A DNA stretch of 64,000 nt from Fructilactobacillus lindneri DSM 20690 = JCM 11027 (GTDB lineage: Bacteria > Bacillota > Bacilli > Lactobacillales > Lactobacillaceae), in NCBI RefSeq assembly GCF_002907375.1, contig NZ_MIYK01000001.1:124001-188000 (forward strand), given 5' to 3'. Shown piece by piece: positions 6,383 through 43,278 of this stretch (position 1 is the first letter of the stretch; every line of letters starts with the position of its first letter). The notes beneath the pieces are model-generated. The model did no database searches, was not told the origin of the DNA, and saw only the letters and a list, made by a program, of their open reading frames with translations. A program made the translations under genes and the position numbers.

Positions 6383-7324
6383 TTAATTTTGGTACTCTTT
6401 TAATTTTCCGCGGAAATCAGAAAGTTGATGATAACCTTTTTCCTGCATGATATCTGTAAGTTCTTGTTTTAGTCTGGCAAAAATATGTGGTCCTTCTTGG
6501 GCAAGAGCAGTTCCAATTTCTACAATATCTGCGCCACATAAAATTAGCTCAAAAACATCTAATCCGGTTTTGACTCCACCAGTTCCAATAATCTTAATTT
6601 CCGGATTAAGACGTTGGCGAAATGCGCGAACATTAGCAAGTGCTACTGGTTTAACGTATGTTCCACCGATTCCCCCAAATCCTCCTTTAGGCCGAATCAC
6701 GACTGATTCAGTTTTAGCATCAACCACTAATCCATTTCCGACACTGTTAATGGTATTAATGTAAGTTAGGGGATACTTGTTTAAAATTTTAGCAACTGCA
6801 TCATATTGTTGAAGATCAAAATAAGGTGGAAGTTTAAGGCCTAATGGTTTTGTAAAAAATTCAAAAACGGCAGTTAAAGTTTCTTCGATTGCGGTTAAAT
6901 CGTAACCGACTTGAGGCTTTCCAATCACATTAGGACAAGAAAGATTTAACTCACATAAGCTAGTGAAACTGCTTTTTTGTACCTTTTTGAGTGCGGTTAA
7001 ATTATCTTCCCTAGAAGTCCCAGAAATTGATAAATCGATTGGTTTATTAATTTCATTTTTTTCAATGAAATTTAAATAATAGTCTAATCCTTGATTAGGT
7101 AGCCCCATAGAATTAATACTGCCAAATTTGGTATCTGCATAACGAGGAGTTGGATTTCCTTTGCGCGGTTTTAAAGTAGCACTTTTAGTGGTCACTCCAC
7201 CAGCTTCAGAATTTAAAATTTGATTCATTTCGGCAGCTGTTTCGTCAAAAACACCTGCAGCATTGATGAAAGGTGATTGAAAAACTTCGTTACCAATGTT
7301 TGCTGAAATTGAGATGTTAGTCAT
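6383..7324 (-). CDS. pyrD: Dihydroorotate dehydrogenase, class 1A (fumarate type)
   Basis: Oxidises dihydroorotate to orotate with FMN; class 1A enzymes are cytosolic and use fumarate as acceptor. The protein is 313 aa. It closely follows the lactococcal PyrDA pattern: FINAAGVFDET, GSINSMGLPN, ELNLSCPNVIGKPQ (active-site Cys), KLPPYFD, NSVGNGL, GFGGIGGTYVKP and IGTGGVKTGLDVFE. The start at 7324 is 8 bases after AAAGGAG; the longer frame to 7357 would begin inside the leader terminator. It has its own promoter and PyrR-type attenuator and is divergent from pyrB. Confidence 0.95.
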   Translation of the reverse strand: MTNISISANIGNEVFQSPFINAAGVFDETAAEMNQILNSEAGGVTTKSATLKPRKGNPTPRYADTKFGSINSMGLPNQGLDYYLNFIEKNEINKPIDLSISGTSREDNLTALKKVQKSSFTSLCELNLSCPNVIGKPQVGYDLTAIEETLTAVFEFFTKPLGLKLPPYFDLQQYDAVAKILNKYPLTYINTINSVGNGLVVDAKTESVVIRPKGGFGGIGGTYVKPVALANVRAFRQRLNPEIKIIGTGGVKTGLDVFELILCGADIVEIGTALAQEGPHIFARLKQELTDIMQEKGYHQLSDFRGKLKEYQN

Positions 7325-7345: not shown

Positions 7346-7458
7346 AAAAAGCCGCAATTAAGACCATGGTTTTCAGAGAAATACTAAGTAGTCAAAATTG
7401 CGGCAGTGGTATGTTTATATTAAGTGGTGATAAGATCTTTTGGCTTCTCTGAACCAAG
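7346..7458 (-). promoter_or_regulatory. PyrR-dependent attenuator in the pyrD leader
   Basis: Reading the minus strand, 7458-7437 forms a hairpin whose loop carries the PyrR-recognition core UUCAGAGAAG inside a UUGG/CCAA stem. Downstream is a terminator stem (7404-7396 with 7359-7351, GCCGCAATT/AATTGCGGC) followed by five T. The terminator loop contains TTTCTCTGAAAACC, which can pair with the PyrR hairpin as an antiterminator. With UMP bound, PyrR should hold the first hairpin and permit termination. Confidence 0.85.
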
Positions 7459-7548: not shown

Positions 7549-7577
7549 AAGTAACAATAAATAAGGAATACTTTAAT

Positions 7578-7656
7578 TCGATTCAGAGAAATCGAGAAGT
7601 TAACTGGTAATGTTATTAAAACAGGCATACTACGTTAATTGTAGTATGTCTTTTAT
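7578..7656 (+). promoter_or_regulatory. PyrR-dependent attenuator in the pyrB leader
   Basis: A hairpin at 7578-7595 (TCGATT/AATCGA stem) presents CAGAGA in the loop, as in PyrR sites. A terminator follows: 7624-7633 pairs with 7641-7650, then TTTTATTT. The pyrB start is 46 bases beyond the T run. Confidence 0.8.
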
Positions 7657-7702
7657 TTATGCAGTTTTATTTACAATGGATGAAAACCTTGGGGGATATA
7701 AA

Positions 7703-8647
7703 ATGGCATTAATAACCAAACATGACCTAGTAACAGTGGCAAATCTGACCCAACAACAAGTATTACATAAAATCAAATTAGCGCAGTTATTTAGTGAAGG
7801 AAAAACTATTCGGCTTAATCGTCCGACTTATGCAATGAATCTTTTCTTTGAGAATAGTACTAGAACTCATACCAGTTTTGAAATGGCTGAAAGAAAGTTA
7901 GGGATACAAGTTTTACAATTTGATGCCGCTGCTAGTTCAGTGACAAAAGGTGAAACTTTAGCAGATACAGTAAAAACTATTCAAGCTATTGGAGTTGATT
8001 TTGCCGTTATCCGTCATTCTGATAATGAATATTATAAACAACTTTTACAAGCTAATTTAGATATTAGCATTGTTAATGCTGGTGACGGCAGTGGTCAGCA
8101 TCCATCTCAATCTTTGCTTGACATGATGACCATTTATCAAGAATTTGGGACATTTAAAGGATTAAATATTAGTATTATTGGCGATTTAAATCATTCTCGG
8201 GTTGCTAGATCTAATATGGAATTACTAACTAAGTTAGGTGCAAATGTTGCATTTTCCGGACCTGATCAATGGTATGATGATAAGTTTTCAGATTACGGAT
8301 CTCATTTAAGTGTTGACGAAGCAGCCAAAAATTCAGACGTTGTGATGTTGTTACGTGTCCAAAAAGAACGACTTGGAAAAGCAGCAGATGATTTTGATGC
8401 GACTACTTATCATCAACAGTATGGTTTAACTAAAGAACGTTATGACATGATGAAAGATAATGCCATTATTATGCATCCGGCTCCGGTTAATCGAGGAGTC
8501 GAAATTGATTCTGAATTAGTAGAAAGTGCTAAATCAAGAATTTTTAAACAAATGGAAAATGGGATGTACATGCGGATGGCTATTTTAACTGATATTTTAG
8601 TCAATAAGGGAATTGTTAGTCCAGCTGAAATTAAAGGAATTAATTAA
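7703..8647 (+). CDS. pyrB: Aspartate carbamoyltransferase catalytic chain
   Basis: First committed step of pyrimidine synthesis: carbamoyl phosphate plus aspartate gives carbamoyl aspartate. The protein is 314 aa, the usual length. The carbamoyl-phosphate loop is STRTHTSFE from residue 52. Other family features are [11 protein letters not shown], the LRVQKERL loop and the C-terminal [12 protein letters not shown] chose ATG 7703, 8 bases after GGGGGA, because the longer upstream frame reads through the attenuator. pyrC starts 2 bases after the stop codon. No regulatory chain (pyrI) is present, as expected in Firmicutes. Confidence 0.95.
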
Positions 8648-8649
8648 TC

Positions 8650-9923
8650 ATGAAAATTTTAATTAAAAATGCTCAAGTTTATCATGACGAACAATTACAG
8701 CAAGAAGATGTGCTGTTAGTTGATGGAATGATTAAAAAAATACAAAAAAAATTATATCTGAGTCTGCTGAAAAAGTAATTAATGCTGAAGGAAAGACAAT
8801 CCTTCCCGGTTTAGTAGACGTGCATGTTCATTTTCGTGACCCTGGACAAACTGCCAAGGAAACAGTTAAAACTGGAAGTGAAGCCTCTGCTCATGGAGGA
8901 TATACTACTGTTTGTGCTATGCCTAATGTAACTCCAGTCCCAAATACTCCTGATAAATTAAAAGAGATGGCTGCTTATAATGAAAAACAAGGTGTTATTA
9001 ATGTCGAACAATATTCCCCTGTAACGTATGATGAACGTGGGAATCATTTAGTTGATTTTGCTGCGATGAAACGTGCAGGAGCAGTTGCTTTTAGTAATGA
9101 TGGAATTGGAATCCAGACTGGTAAAACAATGTTTGATGCAATGGTTGAAATTGCCAAAACTGGATTGCCATTAGCAGCTCATGTTGAAGATCATGCATTA
9201 ATGAATGGCGGTGTGATGAATGAAGGAAGAGTTTCAGAAGCATTAGGTCTAAAAGGAGCTAATGAAGTGGCTGAAACAAGCCAGCTAGCACGTGATTTAG
9301 AATTAGCGAGGGTTACTCACGTGCATTATCATGTTTGTCATGTATCTAAATCCCGTAGTGTTGAACTGATTAGACGTGCGAAAGCTGATGGAGTCAATGT
9401 AACAGCCGAAGTTTCACCACATCATTTGTTACTGGATGATTCAATGATTAAAATGGATAATCCAATGTATAAGATGAATCCGCCGTTACGAAGTAAAGAG
9501 GATTGTGAAGCATTATTAACTGGGTTATTGGATGGAACAATTGATATGATAGCTACTGACCATGCCCCACATACCATAACTGATAAAGGCGATTCATTTG
9601 TTGATTCGGCATTTGGAATTACTGGAATCGAAACAGCATTTCCTTTGTTGTATACCAGTTTAGTTGAAACCAAAAAAGTTACGCTTCAACAATTATTAAA
9701 ATGGATGAGCAGGGCACCAGTTGAAAAATTTAATTTAACAAATGATAATGAGCTTAAAGTTGGTAACCTAGCTAATTTTGCTATTTGGGATTTGCAGCAT
9801 CAACATAAGATTATTACAACTGAAATGAAGTCGAAGGGACGTAATTCTCCTTTTATTGGAGAGCAAGTCAATGCCAATAATTTAGCCACTTTTTCAAATG
9901 GAAAACTTGTGTATCAAGCCTAA
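8650..9923 (+). pseudogene. pyrC: Dihydroorotase pyrC, interrupted by a frameshift at codon ~33
   Basis: Class I dihydroorotase, cyclising carbamoyl aspartate to dihydroorotate. Translation from ATG 8650 gives a normal N-terminus (MKILIKNAQVYHDEQL) and then stops after 42 codons. The rest of the enzyme is open one base back, in the -1 frame, from the A8 run at 8744-8751. One extra A would restore 424 aa, the normal family length. The downstream part keeps DVHVHFRDPGQ (metal HxH), TAEVSPHHLLLDD and ATDHAPHT. The stall point is an in-phase A_AAA_AAA, a potential -1 slippage site. A product from GTG 8820 would lack the N-terminal strand domain and has no clear ribosome site. Whether the gene is broken, slipping or mis-sequenced is open. 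Confidence 0.85.
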
Positions 9924-9925
9924 AT

Positions 9926-9960
9926 AAAATTCTGTCACGATTATTTGTGACAGAATTTTT
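9926..9960 (+). terminator. Terminator of pyrB-pyrC
   Basis: A 13-bp stem (9926-9938 with 9947-9959) with an 8-base loop is followed by a T run. Confidence 0.85.
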
Positions 9961-10997: not shown

Positions 10998-12452
10998 TTG
11001 AATAATAAAAAAGATGAAAAAATTGGTACACTTGGGTTAACTGCTTTCGTACTTTCAGCGATGGTTGGTGGGGGTATTTATGATTTACCTCAAAATATGG
11101 CACTGCATGCGGGTTTGATTGCTCAAATAATTGCTTGGGTAATTTCCGGCTTAATTATTGGTTTAATTGTTAAATCATTTTTGATCTTGTCACAAGTAAG
11201 GCCGCAATATACGACGGGACTTTATCATTATGCACATGCGGGCTTTGGTAACTTTACTGCCTTTTTCGTTAGTTGGGGCTATTGGATTTGTCAGTCATTT
11301 GCAATTGCTGCTTATTCAGTATTGTTAATGTCGACTTTGAATGCCTTTTGGCCGGGAACTTTTTCCGGGGGAAATAATTGGGCAGCTGTAATTGGCGGAT
11401 CTTTAGTACTTTGGATTATGGCTTCTCTAATTGTAAAAGGGATTAGAACAACAAGTAATGTTGATATGCTCGGTACAGTTTGTATGCTGTTGATTGTTGC
11501 ATTTTTTATTATTGTAATGATTGTTGCGTTTAACTGGCAGACGTTTATTACCAATCCAATGGCGGCTAAAAGTTTACCCCAAGTTGATGATAAAGCATTA
11601 GGAAGTCTTTTTTCTCAAGTTAAAGGCGCCATGTTAACTACTCTTTGGGTCTTTTCGGGAGTAGAAAGTGCAGTTGTCCTTTCAGGAAATGCAAAAAGTC
11701 AAAAAGATGTGCGTCATGCCACCAGAGATGGTTTTTTAATTTGTTTGGTGCTGTATGCTTTAGTCTCAATTCTACCATTAGGATTAAAAAGTTATGGACA
11801 GCTGGCTAATTTATCTAGTCCGTCAACTGCTGGCTTAATGCAATATGTAATGGGACCCGTTGGACGGCTGATTATTACCTTTGGAGTAATTGTTGCAGTT
11901 TTAGCCAGTTGGTTAAGTTGGATTTTGGTATTGTCAGAAATGCCACGAGCTGCAGCAGAAGATGGAACTTTTCCAAAATTTTTCAATAAGATGGGTAAGC
12001 ATAATGTTCCAGTTGCTTCATTATTGATGACAGTATTGGTAATTCAAATCATTATCTTCTTTACTCATTTTGCTGGAAGAGCTTTTAATACGACACTGAC
12101 AATTGTCGCTACCATGACTGTTCCTCCGTATCTAATTTCAATGTTATTTTTAGCTAAAATTAGTGCAAAAAAAGAAACCTTTAATCCAGCAGGAAATGTA
12201 GTATCTACTTCGCGCACGGGTGCTTTTATTACATCCATCTTAGCAATTGTTGGAACCTTGTTTATGGGGTACACAGCAGGTATTAAATATTTAACGATTG
12301 CTTTTGTGATTTATGCAATTGGAATTCCACTGTTTATTTATGCTAGAAAACAATATGCTCCTACAAAACCGGTTTTCGGTAAATTTGAGAGAGTTTTTGC
12401 TATTATGATTGTTTTAATTGCTGTGATGGGATTATTCATTATATTTAAATAA
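10998..12452 (+). CDS. hdcP: Histidine/histamine antiporter
   Basis: An APC-superfamily membrane exchanger of 484 aa with about 12-13 hydrophobic segments. It starts NNKKDEKIGTLGLTAFVLSA, followed by the family glycine motif VGGGIYDLPQNMA. The sequence would also fit arginine/ornithine antiporters; the immediate hdcA-hdcB neighbours make histidine import coupled to histamine export much more likely. Together with decarboxylation this yields proton motive force. The TTG at 10998 sits 7 bases after GAGG, while the GTG at 10992 is only 1 base away, so I chose TTG. A terminator separates it from hdcA. Confidence 0.85.
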   Translation: MNNKKDEKIGTLGLTAFVLSAMVGGGIYDLPQNMALHAGLIAQIIAWVISGLIIGLIVKSFLILSQVRPQYTTGLYHYAHAGFGNFTAFFVSWGYWICQSFAIAAYSVLLMSTLNAFWPGTFSGGNNWAAVIGGSLVLWIMASLIVKGIRTTSNVDMLGTVCMLLIVAFFIIVMIVAFNWQTFITNPMAAKSLPQVDDKALGSLFSQVKGAMLTTLWVFSGVESAVVLSGNAKSQKDVRHATRDGFLICLVLYALVSILPLGLKSYGQLANLSSPSTAGLMQYVMGPVGRLIITFGVIVAVLASWLSWILVLSEMPRAAAEDGTFPKFFNKMGKHNVPVASLLMTVLVIQIIIFFTHFAGRAFNTTLTIVATMTVPPYLISMLFLAKISAKKETFNPAGNVVSTSRTGAFITSILAIVGTLFMGYTAGIKYLTIAFVIYAIGIPLFIYARKQYAPTKPVFGKFERVFAIMIVLIAVMGLFIIFK

Positions 12453-12459
12453 AATTAGG

Positions 12460-12498
12460 AAAACTGTTATTGCTGATTAACCCAGCTAACAGTTTTTA
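12460..12498 (+). terminator. Terminator between hdcP and hdcA
   Basis: AAAACTGTTA (12460-12469) pairs with TAACAGTTTT (12487-12496) and a T run follows. It suggests hdcP and hdcA-hdcB are separate transcripts with some read-through. Confidence 0.7.
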
Positions 12499-12617
12499 TT
12501 TTGTAAAATAATTAAATAATTGCACAAAAGTCAAGATGTGAAATGTGTAACAATCTTTTGCTTGTGCTACCATTAAACTGTAATTAATAATCTTAAGAAT
12601 GATTAGGGGAAATTTTG

Positions 12618-16950: not shown

Positions 16951-17832
16951 TTATTTCAAAAAGTCAGCTTTTTTAAAATCAGGATTAGGATAAGTGTAAA
17001 ATCCTTTGCCTGATTCAACACCAATCTCACCATTATCAATCATCTTTTTAAGCAGTTCAGCTGCTTTTTGTGAAGTTGGATCATTAGACATTTTGTTAAT
17101 TTCATAAACAGTTCGCAAACCAATCATATCAATAAATCCAAAAGGACCCATTGGTGAGCCAGTTGCAATCATCCAAGTTTTATCAATTGTTTTTGGATCT
17201 GAAATTCCCTTAACCCAAAGTTGAATTCCAACTGTTACGAAGGGAACTAGCAGTGAATTTAAAATATAACCTGGCTGTTCCTTATTAACAAGCAATGGAA
17301 CCATCCCAATTTCTCTAGAATACTTTTCAAACATCTTAGGAAGATCTTTATCAGTTTTACTTTGTGACATGATTTCAGCCGTATTGTTTTTCCAAATTTC
17401 ATTAGCGAAATGATAGGCTAAAAATTTATCGGGACGACCTGTGTAGTCAGCAAATTGTGAAGGTAAAAGTGTTGATGTATTGGTAGCAACAATAGTTTTT
17501 GGATCTGCTAATTTAGCAAATTTTTCATAAAAGTCTTTTTTAGTTTCAATATTTTCTGGAAGAGCTTCAATTACTAAATCAGCACCTTTTAGTGCTTGGG
17601 CTAAATCAGTAGTATAAGTGAGATGTTTTTGTGCATCGTTTAACTGTTAGTCAGTTGCTTTAAGATCATCTTTAACGGCTTGTGCCCACCGACCAACTCG
17701 TTCTTTAGCACGATTTAATGAACCATCATTTCGACCCCAAATGGTCACATTTTTACCATGAAAAGCTGACATATAAGCAATTTGTGATCCAAGTGTTCCT
17801 CCACCAACTACTGTAACATTATTAAATTCCAT
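16951..17832 (-). pseudogene. 3-hydroxyacyl-CoA dehydrogenase family gene with internal stop
   Basis: The frame from ATG 17832 encodes an NAD-binding dehydrogenase N-terminus (VTVVGGGTLGSQIAYMSAF). It is cut by one in-frame TAA at 17647-17649, after 61 codons (KDDLKATD then stop, then QLNDAQKHL). Without that stop the protein would be 293 aa, the normal length. The later part keeps VIEALPENIETKKDFY, TNTSTLLPSQFADYTGR and the C-terminal domain with GPFGFIDMIGLRTVYEI. Substrate in lactobacilli is uncertain (3-hydroxyacyl-CoA or a sugar acid). An intact ribosome site (AAAGGAG) remains. The lesion is a substitution, unlike the A/T-run losses elsewhere in the window. Confidence 0.85.
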
Positions 17833-41998: not shown

Positions 41999-43278
41999 TC
42001 ACTCCTTAGATTTTGGTGAACTAGCTTGATTTAAGCGTTTGTATTGTTCTCCTAATGCTTTTTCAAATTTGCCATTTTCTTTAGGATGATAATACTTAGC
42101 ATTTTTAATTTTATTTGGTAAATATTGTTGTGAAACCCAATCATTAGGGTAGTCATGTGGAAATTTATAACCAACATGCCCTAATTCTTTGGCACCTTTA
42201 TAATGAGCATCTCGTAGATACTTTGGAATTACACCATAATTTCCAGTTTGTACATCTTTAAGAGCTTCATCAATAGCTGTAATTCCAGAATTTGATTTCG
42301 GAGATAAACAAAGTTCAATGATTGCATCCGACAACGGGATTCGTGCTTCAGGGAATCCCAATTTATTAGCAGCTTCAACAGCTGTCACGGTCCTAGCAGC
42401 TGCTGAAGGATTCGCTAAACCAATGTCTTCGTATGCAATTACCATGAGGCGACGCGTAAGTGAATTTAAATCACCAGACTCAATTAAACGAGCAGCATAA
42501 TGTAAGGCAGCGTTCACATCAGATCCGCGAATTGATTTTTGAAATGCAGATAGAACGTTATAGTGACCATCACCATTTTTGTCTTGTGTCAGTGCTTTTT
42601 TTGTAAGCATGCTTCTATGTCGCTTAAGGTAACATTAATAATCCCATCAACAGTCTTAGTTGATTTAACAGCTAATTCTAAAGCATTCAGAGCACTTCTT
42701 AAATCACCATTGGTATTATGAGTTAAAAAGTTTAAAGCATTATCATCAATATTAACTTTGTAGTTTCCTAAACCATTTTCTGAATCATTTAAAGACCGAT
42801 CAATGGCAGTTTTAATATTTTGACTTGAGAGGGGATGGACTTGAAAAATTTGAGTTCTGGATCGAATTGCAGGACTGATATTAATGTATGGATTCTCAGT
42901 TGTTGCTCCAATTAAAATGATTTGACCACTTTCAAGCAACGGTAATAAAAAATCTTGTTTAGTTTTATCTAAACGATGAATTTCATCGAGTAATAATACC
43001 ACTGTACCACTCATTTTGGACTCATTTGCAACAATTTGTAAATCCTTTTTAGTATCAGTTGCAGCATTAAGAATGCGAAAAGCATATTTTGATGATCCAG
43101 CAATTGCACTTGCAATACTTGTTTTACCAGTTCCAGGAGGTCCATATAAAATCATAGAAGATAACATTTTAGCTTGGACCATGCGCTGAATAATTTTACC
43201 ATTACCAACTAAATCTTCTTGTCCGACAATTTCTTCTATTTTCTGAGGTCGCATTCGATATGCTAAAGGTTTTTGCAT
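41999..43278 (-). pseudogene. rarA: rarA (mgsA) replication-associated ATPase split by a frameshift
   Basis: An AAA+ protein related to clamp-loader subunits that acts at stalled forks. The first part (from ATG 43278, 229 aa) has the P-loop GPPGTGKT (46-53), Walker B LLLDEIHR and SRTQIFQVHPL, and ends LQKKH-stop. The second part continues in the -1 frame with KKALTQDKNGDG, AFQKSIRGSDVNAALHY and RLMVIAYEDIGLANP. The break is at A7 of the minus strand (42602-42596). One more A would give 426 aa, the normal length. In phase the site reads A_AAA_AAG, the heptamer used for -1 frameshifting in E. coli dnaX, so an expressed full protein is possible. Otherwise the gene is broken or the base was missed. 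Confidence 0.85.

Follow-up and report, generated by a model that had tools for sequence, protein, structure and literature searches.

A frame break at a run of eight A in pyrC of a Fructilactobacillus genome, probably a recent inactivation of dihydroorotase

The pyrC gene analysed here is broken in frame at a run of eight A, and the question is what the break means for the synthesis of dihydroorotase. The initial annotation of the window (the whole stretch of 64,000 nt) had offered three competing readings: recent loss of the gene, production of full-length protein by slippage on the run, and an error of the assembly. We found real loss to be the best supported of the three. Slippage, which in that annotation would make PyrC a fixed fraction of PyrB, gained no positive support of weight, and an assembly error remains the main rival.

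On the + strand of the window, pyrC starts at ATG 8650, and after 42 codons a stop codon at 8776-8778 closes the frame (5' part, 8650..8778, zero frame). The A8 run, which is the site of the frame change, occupies positions 8744-8751. The zero-frame codons across it are CAA AAA AAA TTA, so that the heptamer A_AAA_AAA (8745-8751) lies in phase, as had been annotated. The remainder of the gene is open in the -1 frame from approximately 8736 to 9923 (8736..9923). The two parts align one after the other with the dihydroorotase profile NF006837, the 42-aa stub weakly with positions 1-35 (E 7e-5) and the sequence beginning at GTG 8820 with positions 59-423 (E 4e-157). Against TIGR00857 the gene scored 392 bits (cut-off 279), the match beginning only at profile position 20; it adjoins pyrB and is the sole copy over the cut-off in the genome. 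These open reading frames and profile matches bear out the description of a frame closed after 42 codons, with the rest of the gene in the -1 frame from the run onwards. The view that the rest of pyrC is undamaged also held, since no further stop was found in the downstream part. On its sequence, pyrC is a frameshift pseudogene in the sense that its frame is interrupted relative to intact orthologues. An internal restart was considered as a rescue and set aside. The first ATG, GTG or TTG of the -1 frame is GTG 8820, at the metal-binding HVH motif, and a product starting there would lack the N-terminal part, which makes an active enzyme unlikely.

No other broken gene was found in the pyrimidine pathway. 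Directly 5' of pyrC, pyrB is open as an ORF (7703..8647, + strand), and the divergent pyrD, assigned by profile and ORF, is open at 6383..7324 (- strand). Open in this genome are also carA (366 codons), carB (1058 codons), pyrE (210 codons) and pyrF (243 codons), as well as two salvage genes, upp (uracil phosphoribosyltransferase) and an NCS2 permease. PyrR scored over its cut-off in all ten Fructilactobacillus genomes compared (this one and nine congeners), and pyrR is open here. In the F. fructivorans genome (G004) the large carbamoyl-phosphate synthase had no match over the family cut-off although pyrB, pyrC, pyrE and pyrF were present, so that a congener may also lack part of the pathway. 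In another congener, G008, the match to this synthase contains one TAG.

The pyrB leader (7575..7660, + strand; motif and fold) carries a TTCAGAGAA motif at 7583 and a terminator-like hairpin at 7623-7651. A second terminator-like hairpin was read directly from the sequence 3' of pyrC, at about 9930-9960. We take TTCAGAGAA to be PyrR-loop-like. The motif occurs at 7583 (+) for pyrB and at 7452 (-) for pyrD, and was also found 5' of pyrB in seven of the nine congeners; a third copy lies at 7373 (+). The terminator-like hairpins thus agree with the initial annotation, which had seen an intact PyrR attenuator and terminator around the genes. The attenuator itself is better called putative: the motif, the hairpin and the presence of PyrR point to it, but an Rfam search did not report a PyrR element here.

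We compared pyrC with its orthologues in the nine congeners. The gene scored over the TIGR00857 cut-off in 10/10 genomes, and in 9/9 congeners it is uninterrupted, with 423-438 codons and no stop. In the nine congeners, A runs within the 180 nt 5' of the HVH motif reach a maximum length of 4 to 6, and at the place matching the pyrC break neither an A run of at least 7 nor a frame change was found in any of them. Among the genomes examined, this lineage is therefore the only one to have the A tract and the frame change. The open pyrC of G008 contains an A8 run at another place, so run length alone is no bar to an intact gene. Of the alignment columns without variation among the nine congeners, 2 of 162 are changed in PyrC of this genome and 1 of 158 in its PyrB; the terminal branches leading to this genome measure 0.15 (PyrC) and 0.13 (PyrB). 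Since PyrC shows no excess of substitutions, the break is either recent or not real. The substitution pattern indicates that normal constraint on PyrC either persists or ended only very recently.

We asked how common such A runs are in genes. The count of heptamers and runs covered a sample of 304 kb of this genome (G+C content 33.1%), with 278 open frames and 88,113 codons, and expectations were obtained by shuffling synonymous codons within genes. In-phase A_AAA_AAA was observed 87 times against 130 +/- 10 expected; two of the 87 sit in fragments (rarA and an integrase-like gene). The heptamer at pyrC is thus commonplace, although below expectation in the sample, and the slippery site is not special. 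Runs of A8 or longer numbered 42 (87 +/- 5.9 expected), and runs of A9 or longer numbered only 4 (28 +/- 3.3 expected). The shiftier A_AAA_AAG was not depleted (44 observed vs. 33 +/- 5 expected), from which it appears that the depletion tracks run length. The scarcity of A9+ tracts in genes suggests that such tracts carry a cost, and the rarity of A8+ and A9+ runs marks long A runs as weak points, which favours loss. In the samples from two congeners, A9+ and A8+ runs were observed 0 and 18 times in G004 (21.5 and 74.5 expected) and 2 and 29 times in G008 (12.3 and 49.4 expected).

Other broken genes were found in the same genome. The gene for the AAA ATPase RarA (41999..43278, - strand; congeners and profile) is broken just as pyrC is, and continues in the -1 frame after an A7 run at 42596-42602 that forms an in-phase A_AAA_AAG. 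It is open in 9/9 congeners (428-439 codons); the site could be read in seven of them, and two (G008 and G009) have A8 there. A 3-hydroxyacyl-CoA dehydrogenase gene (16951-17832, - strand; profile) has an in-frame TAA at 17647-17649 after 61 codons. On another contig (L021 1109-2358, G000:C10), an amidohydrolase gene is 31 nt shorter than its relative in G004 and is out of frame. A further gene, which we presume to be integrase-like, has a stop and a frame change. Breaks of several kinds (a 31-nt loss, an in-frame stop, slips in A runs) indicate gene loss by several routes, not through homopolymers alone. A rarA paralogue in G004 (L047, about 11229-12555; G004:C9:251229-252555, minus strand) is split in two frames and is open in G008. 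Two genes that we take by resemblance to be mutS-like (870 codons) and mutL-like (641 codons) are open, so no repair defect was found behind the two A-run deletions within the 64-kb window.

The survey of breaks covered 304 kb of the 1,441-kb genome plus, for the scan by orthologues, 17 kb of chosen loci. That scan gave 7 candidate rows from 168 queries, among them two for pyrC, one for the amidohydrolase and two ordinary leader or neighbour matches. The amidohydrolase locus had been fetched before the scan and is thus not an independent find, and rarA was missed because its orthologues lie outside the reference stretches. The reversed scan returned 3 rows from 189 queries in G004 and 3 from 179 in G008, of which at least one was a real split (the G004 rarA paralogue). 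A scan by codons, which skipped pairs where the second part has its own start and ribosome site, yielded 18 pairs. Three are the real breaks in the window (pyrC, rarA and the dehydrogenase). Six others were inspected and comprised four ordinary gene pairs and two pairs in one integrase-like gene. Among the remaining 9 pairs the second part begins with ATG in 5, and one is the mutS-like gene. No homopolymer break outside the window was confirmed by these scans of the 304-kb sample, whose sensitivity is limited.

We concluded that a recent inactivation of pyrC by the loss of a single A in a long A tract is the probable explanation. In this lineage, replication slippage would have dropped one A from a pyrC tract of unusual length. 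Translation would now give a 42-aa peptide, with full-length dihydroorotase scarce or absent, and the strain would therefore probably be a pyrimidine auxotroph living on uracil salvage. The remainder of the pathway would still be open because the loss of pyrC is recent. Any small amount of full-length PyrC arising from slippage by RNA polymerase or the ribosome would be a by-product and not a device; such non-programmed leak-through at the A8 run is likely in general terms and plausible by analogy with published cases. We infer the direction of the mutation (one A lost), the auxotrophy and the leak. Loss is supported by the nine open congeners and their short A runs, the open pathway, the low substitution in PyrC, the rarA break, the other decay in the genome and the precedent of a lone dihydroorotase frameshift in the genus. 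A complete pathway and a conserved PyrC would also fit continued production of the protein or a miscalled A run.

The main rival is an assembly or sequencing error in which the A run was under-called and pyrC is intact. Everything else in pyrC is intact, as such an error would leave it, and the breaks in pyrC and rarA both look one A short of a run of 8 or 9. Two such cases among the 42 genic A8+ runs (some 44 long runs) would mean roughly one error per 20 runs, a frequency that a homopolymer-prone chemistry can give. Errors at A8 are rare in accurate short reads, and the assembly (1.44 Mb in 22 contigs, one of 527 kb) fits reads of that kind. Against an error also stand the lack of another confirmed homopolymer break outside the window in the limited-sensitivity scans, and the dehydrogenase stop and the 31-nt loss in the amidohydrolase gene, neither of which is a homopolymer slip. 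We therefore regard an assembly error as a serious but minority possibility.

A second rival holds that slippage on the A run, through an A added by the polymerase or a -1 ribosomal shift, makes enough PyrC for the pathway. Transcriptional slippage sites have a run of about 9 or more A or T, with variants of run length in the mRNA, and the pyrC run is 8 in the DNA. In programmed -1 sites the heptamer is followed, at a distance of some 5-9 nt, by a stimulatory stem or pseudoknot. At pyrC a branched stem is predicted by folding at 8762..8819 (+ strand), with its closing helix starting 10 nt 3' of the A run. When the 90 nt downstream of other runs were folded, without correction for base composition, equal or stronger folds followed 2 of the 42 A8+ runs, 4 of the 87 in-phase A_AAA_AAA and 12 of the 211 A7+ runs, which makes the stem a marginal point in favour. 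It is only moderately stable, with z-scores of -0.5, -1.5 and -2.1 for three downstream stretches, and inspection by eye did not show it in folds of the corresponding region of the nine congeners. No Shine-Dalgarno-like stimulator was seen 5' of the pyrC run; one is present at 10 of the 211 A7+ runs. The in-phase X_XXY_YYZ heptamer expected of a programmed -1 site is present, but it is conserved in none of the nine congeners (0/9). Programmed frameshifting at pyrC thus appears unsupported, and the sequence offers no good sign of it.

Slippage of a less specialized kind would agree with the absence of excess substitutions in PyrC, and the undepleted A_AAA_AAG suggests no clear selection against shifty heptamers in themselves. 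In-phase A_AAA_AAA at 87 places argues the other way, since strong shifting at this heptamer would be costly genome-wide. The direction needed at pyrC is the one favoured by A runs: insertions predominate in transcripts of A/T runs and become more frequent as the run lengthens (PMC5574713). In M.HaeIII, deletion of one A from an 8A repeat could be bypassed in E. coli at basal expression (PMC3812077), and read-through of two indel pseudogenes in Lactococcus cremoris was estimated at 18% and 6% (PMC10986495). On the other side, an E. coli reporter carrying the atpB oligoA run kept only about 5% of its activity after single or double A deletions, insertions being corrected better (PMC8254509), and E. 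coli shifts less readily at A_AAA_AAA than at A_AAA_AAG (PMC5009743). The published evidence thus points both ways, and we consider sufficient PyrC by slippage unlikely. The fuller proposal, in which slippage on A8 still gives PyrC enough for UMP, the dose is set by the slippage rate and rarA with its A_AAA_AAG is a second case, we consider quite unlikely. Phase variation, in which pyrC would be turned on and off reversibly as the run gains or loses A's, would fit a run that is long for this genome and a break that is a single-base length change, but the mutS- and mutL-like genes are open and we know of no reason for switching a biosynthetic gene, which leaves it very improbable.

The break in pyrC can be set beside several known systems. 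The frameshift stimulators of E. coli dnaX include an upstream Shine-Dalgarno sequence. Like dnaX, where programmed -1 frameshifting takes place at A_AAA_AAG (PMC5009743), pyrC has an A-run heptamer in phase, followed by a predicted stem; unlike dnaX, it shows no upstream Shine-Dalgarno stimulator, its site is not conserved, the heptamer ends in AAA instead of AAG, and the zero-frame product is a 42-aa stub. The 8A indels of M.HaeIII (PMC3812077) and the L. cremoris pseudogenes (PMC10986495) share with pyrC a single-base indel in a homopolymer-rich run that slippage could cross. The product or the read-through was measured there, whereas pyrC is known from its sequence alone. If slippage does rescue pyrC, pseudogenes annotated at A runs in lactobacilli will need to be re-read.

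Our literature search found no report on pyrC of this strain, which is a weak negative. The closest case is F. sanfranciscensis TMW 1.1304, sequenced by Sanger/454, with a published chromosome of 34.7% G+C (PMC3231932). In that genome report, dihydroorotase seems to be inactive by a frameshift, is given as the only pyrimidine pseudogene, and the strain is presumably auxotrophic (PMC3231932). The two strains share the gene, the genus and a lone frameshift in the pyrimidine pathway; TMW 1.1304 probably belongs to another species, and the comparison is by gene and not by the position of the frameshift. A 2.8-kb piece of its plasmid pLS1 had no match in the present genome and two short matches in G008, and 58 kb of pLS1 and pLS2 had none in the sequence samples. 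Chromosomal stretches compared with plasmids matched, among the matches listed, only conserved genes and tRNA clusters of other genera. Together with the G+C contents (33.1% and 34.7%), these results point weakly to two different species. If the break described here is a plain loss, it would illustrate the decay of long A tracts in a small AT-rich genome. It would also be the second case in the genus of a broken dihydroorotase gene with the other pyrimidine genes open, and F. sanfranciscensis TMW 1.1304 is perhaps a parallel case.
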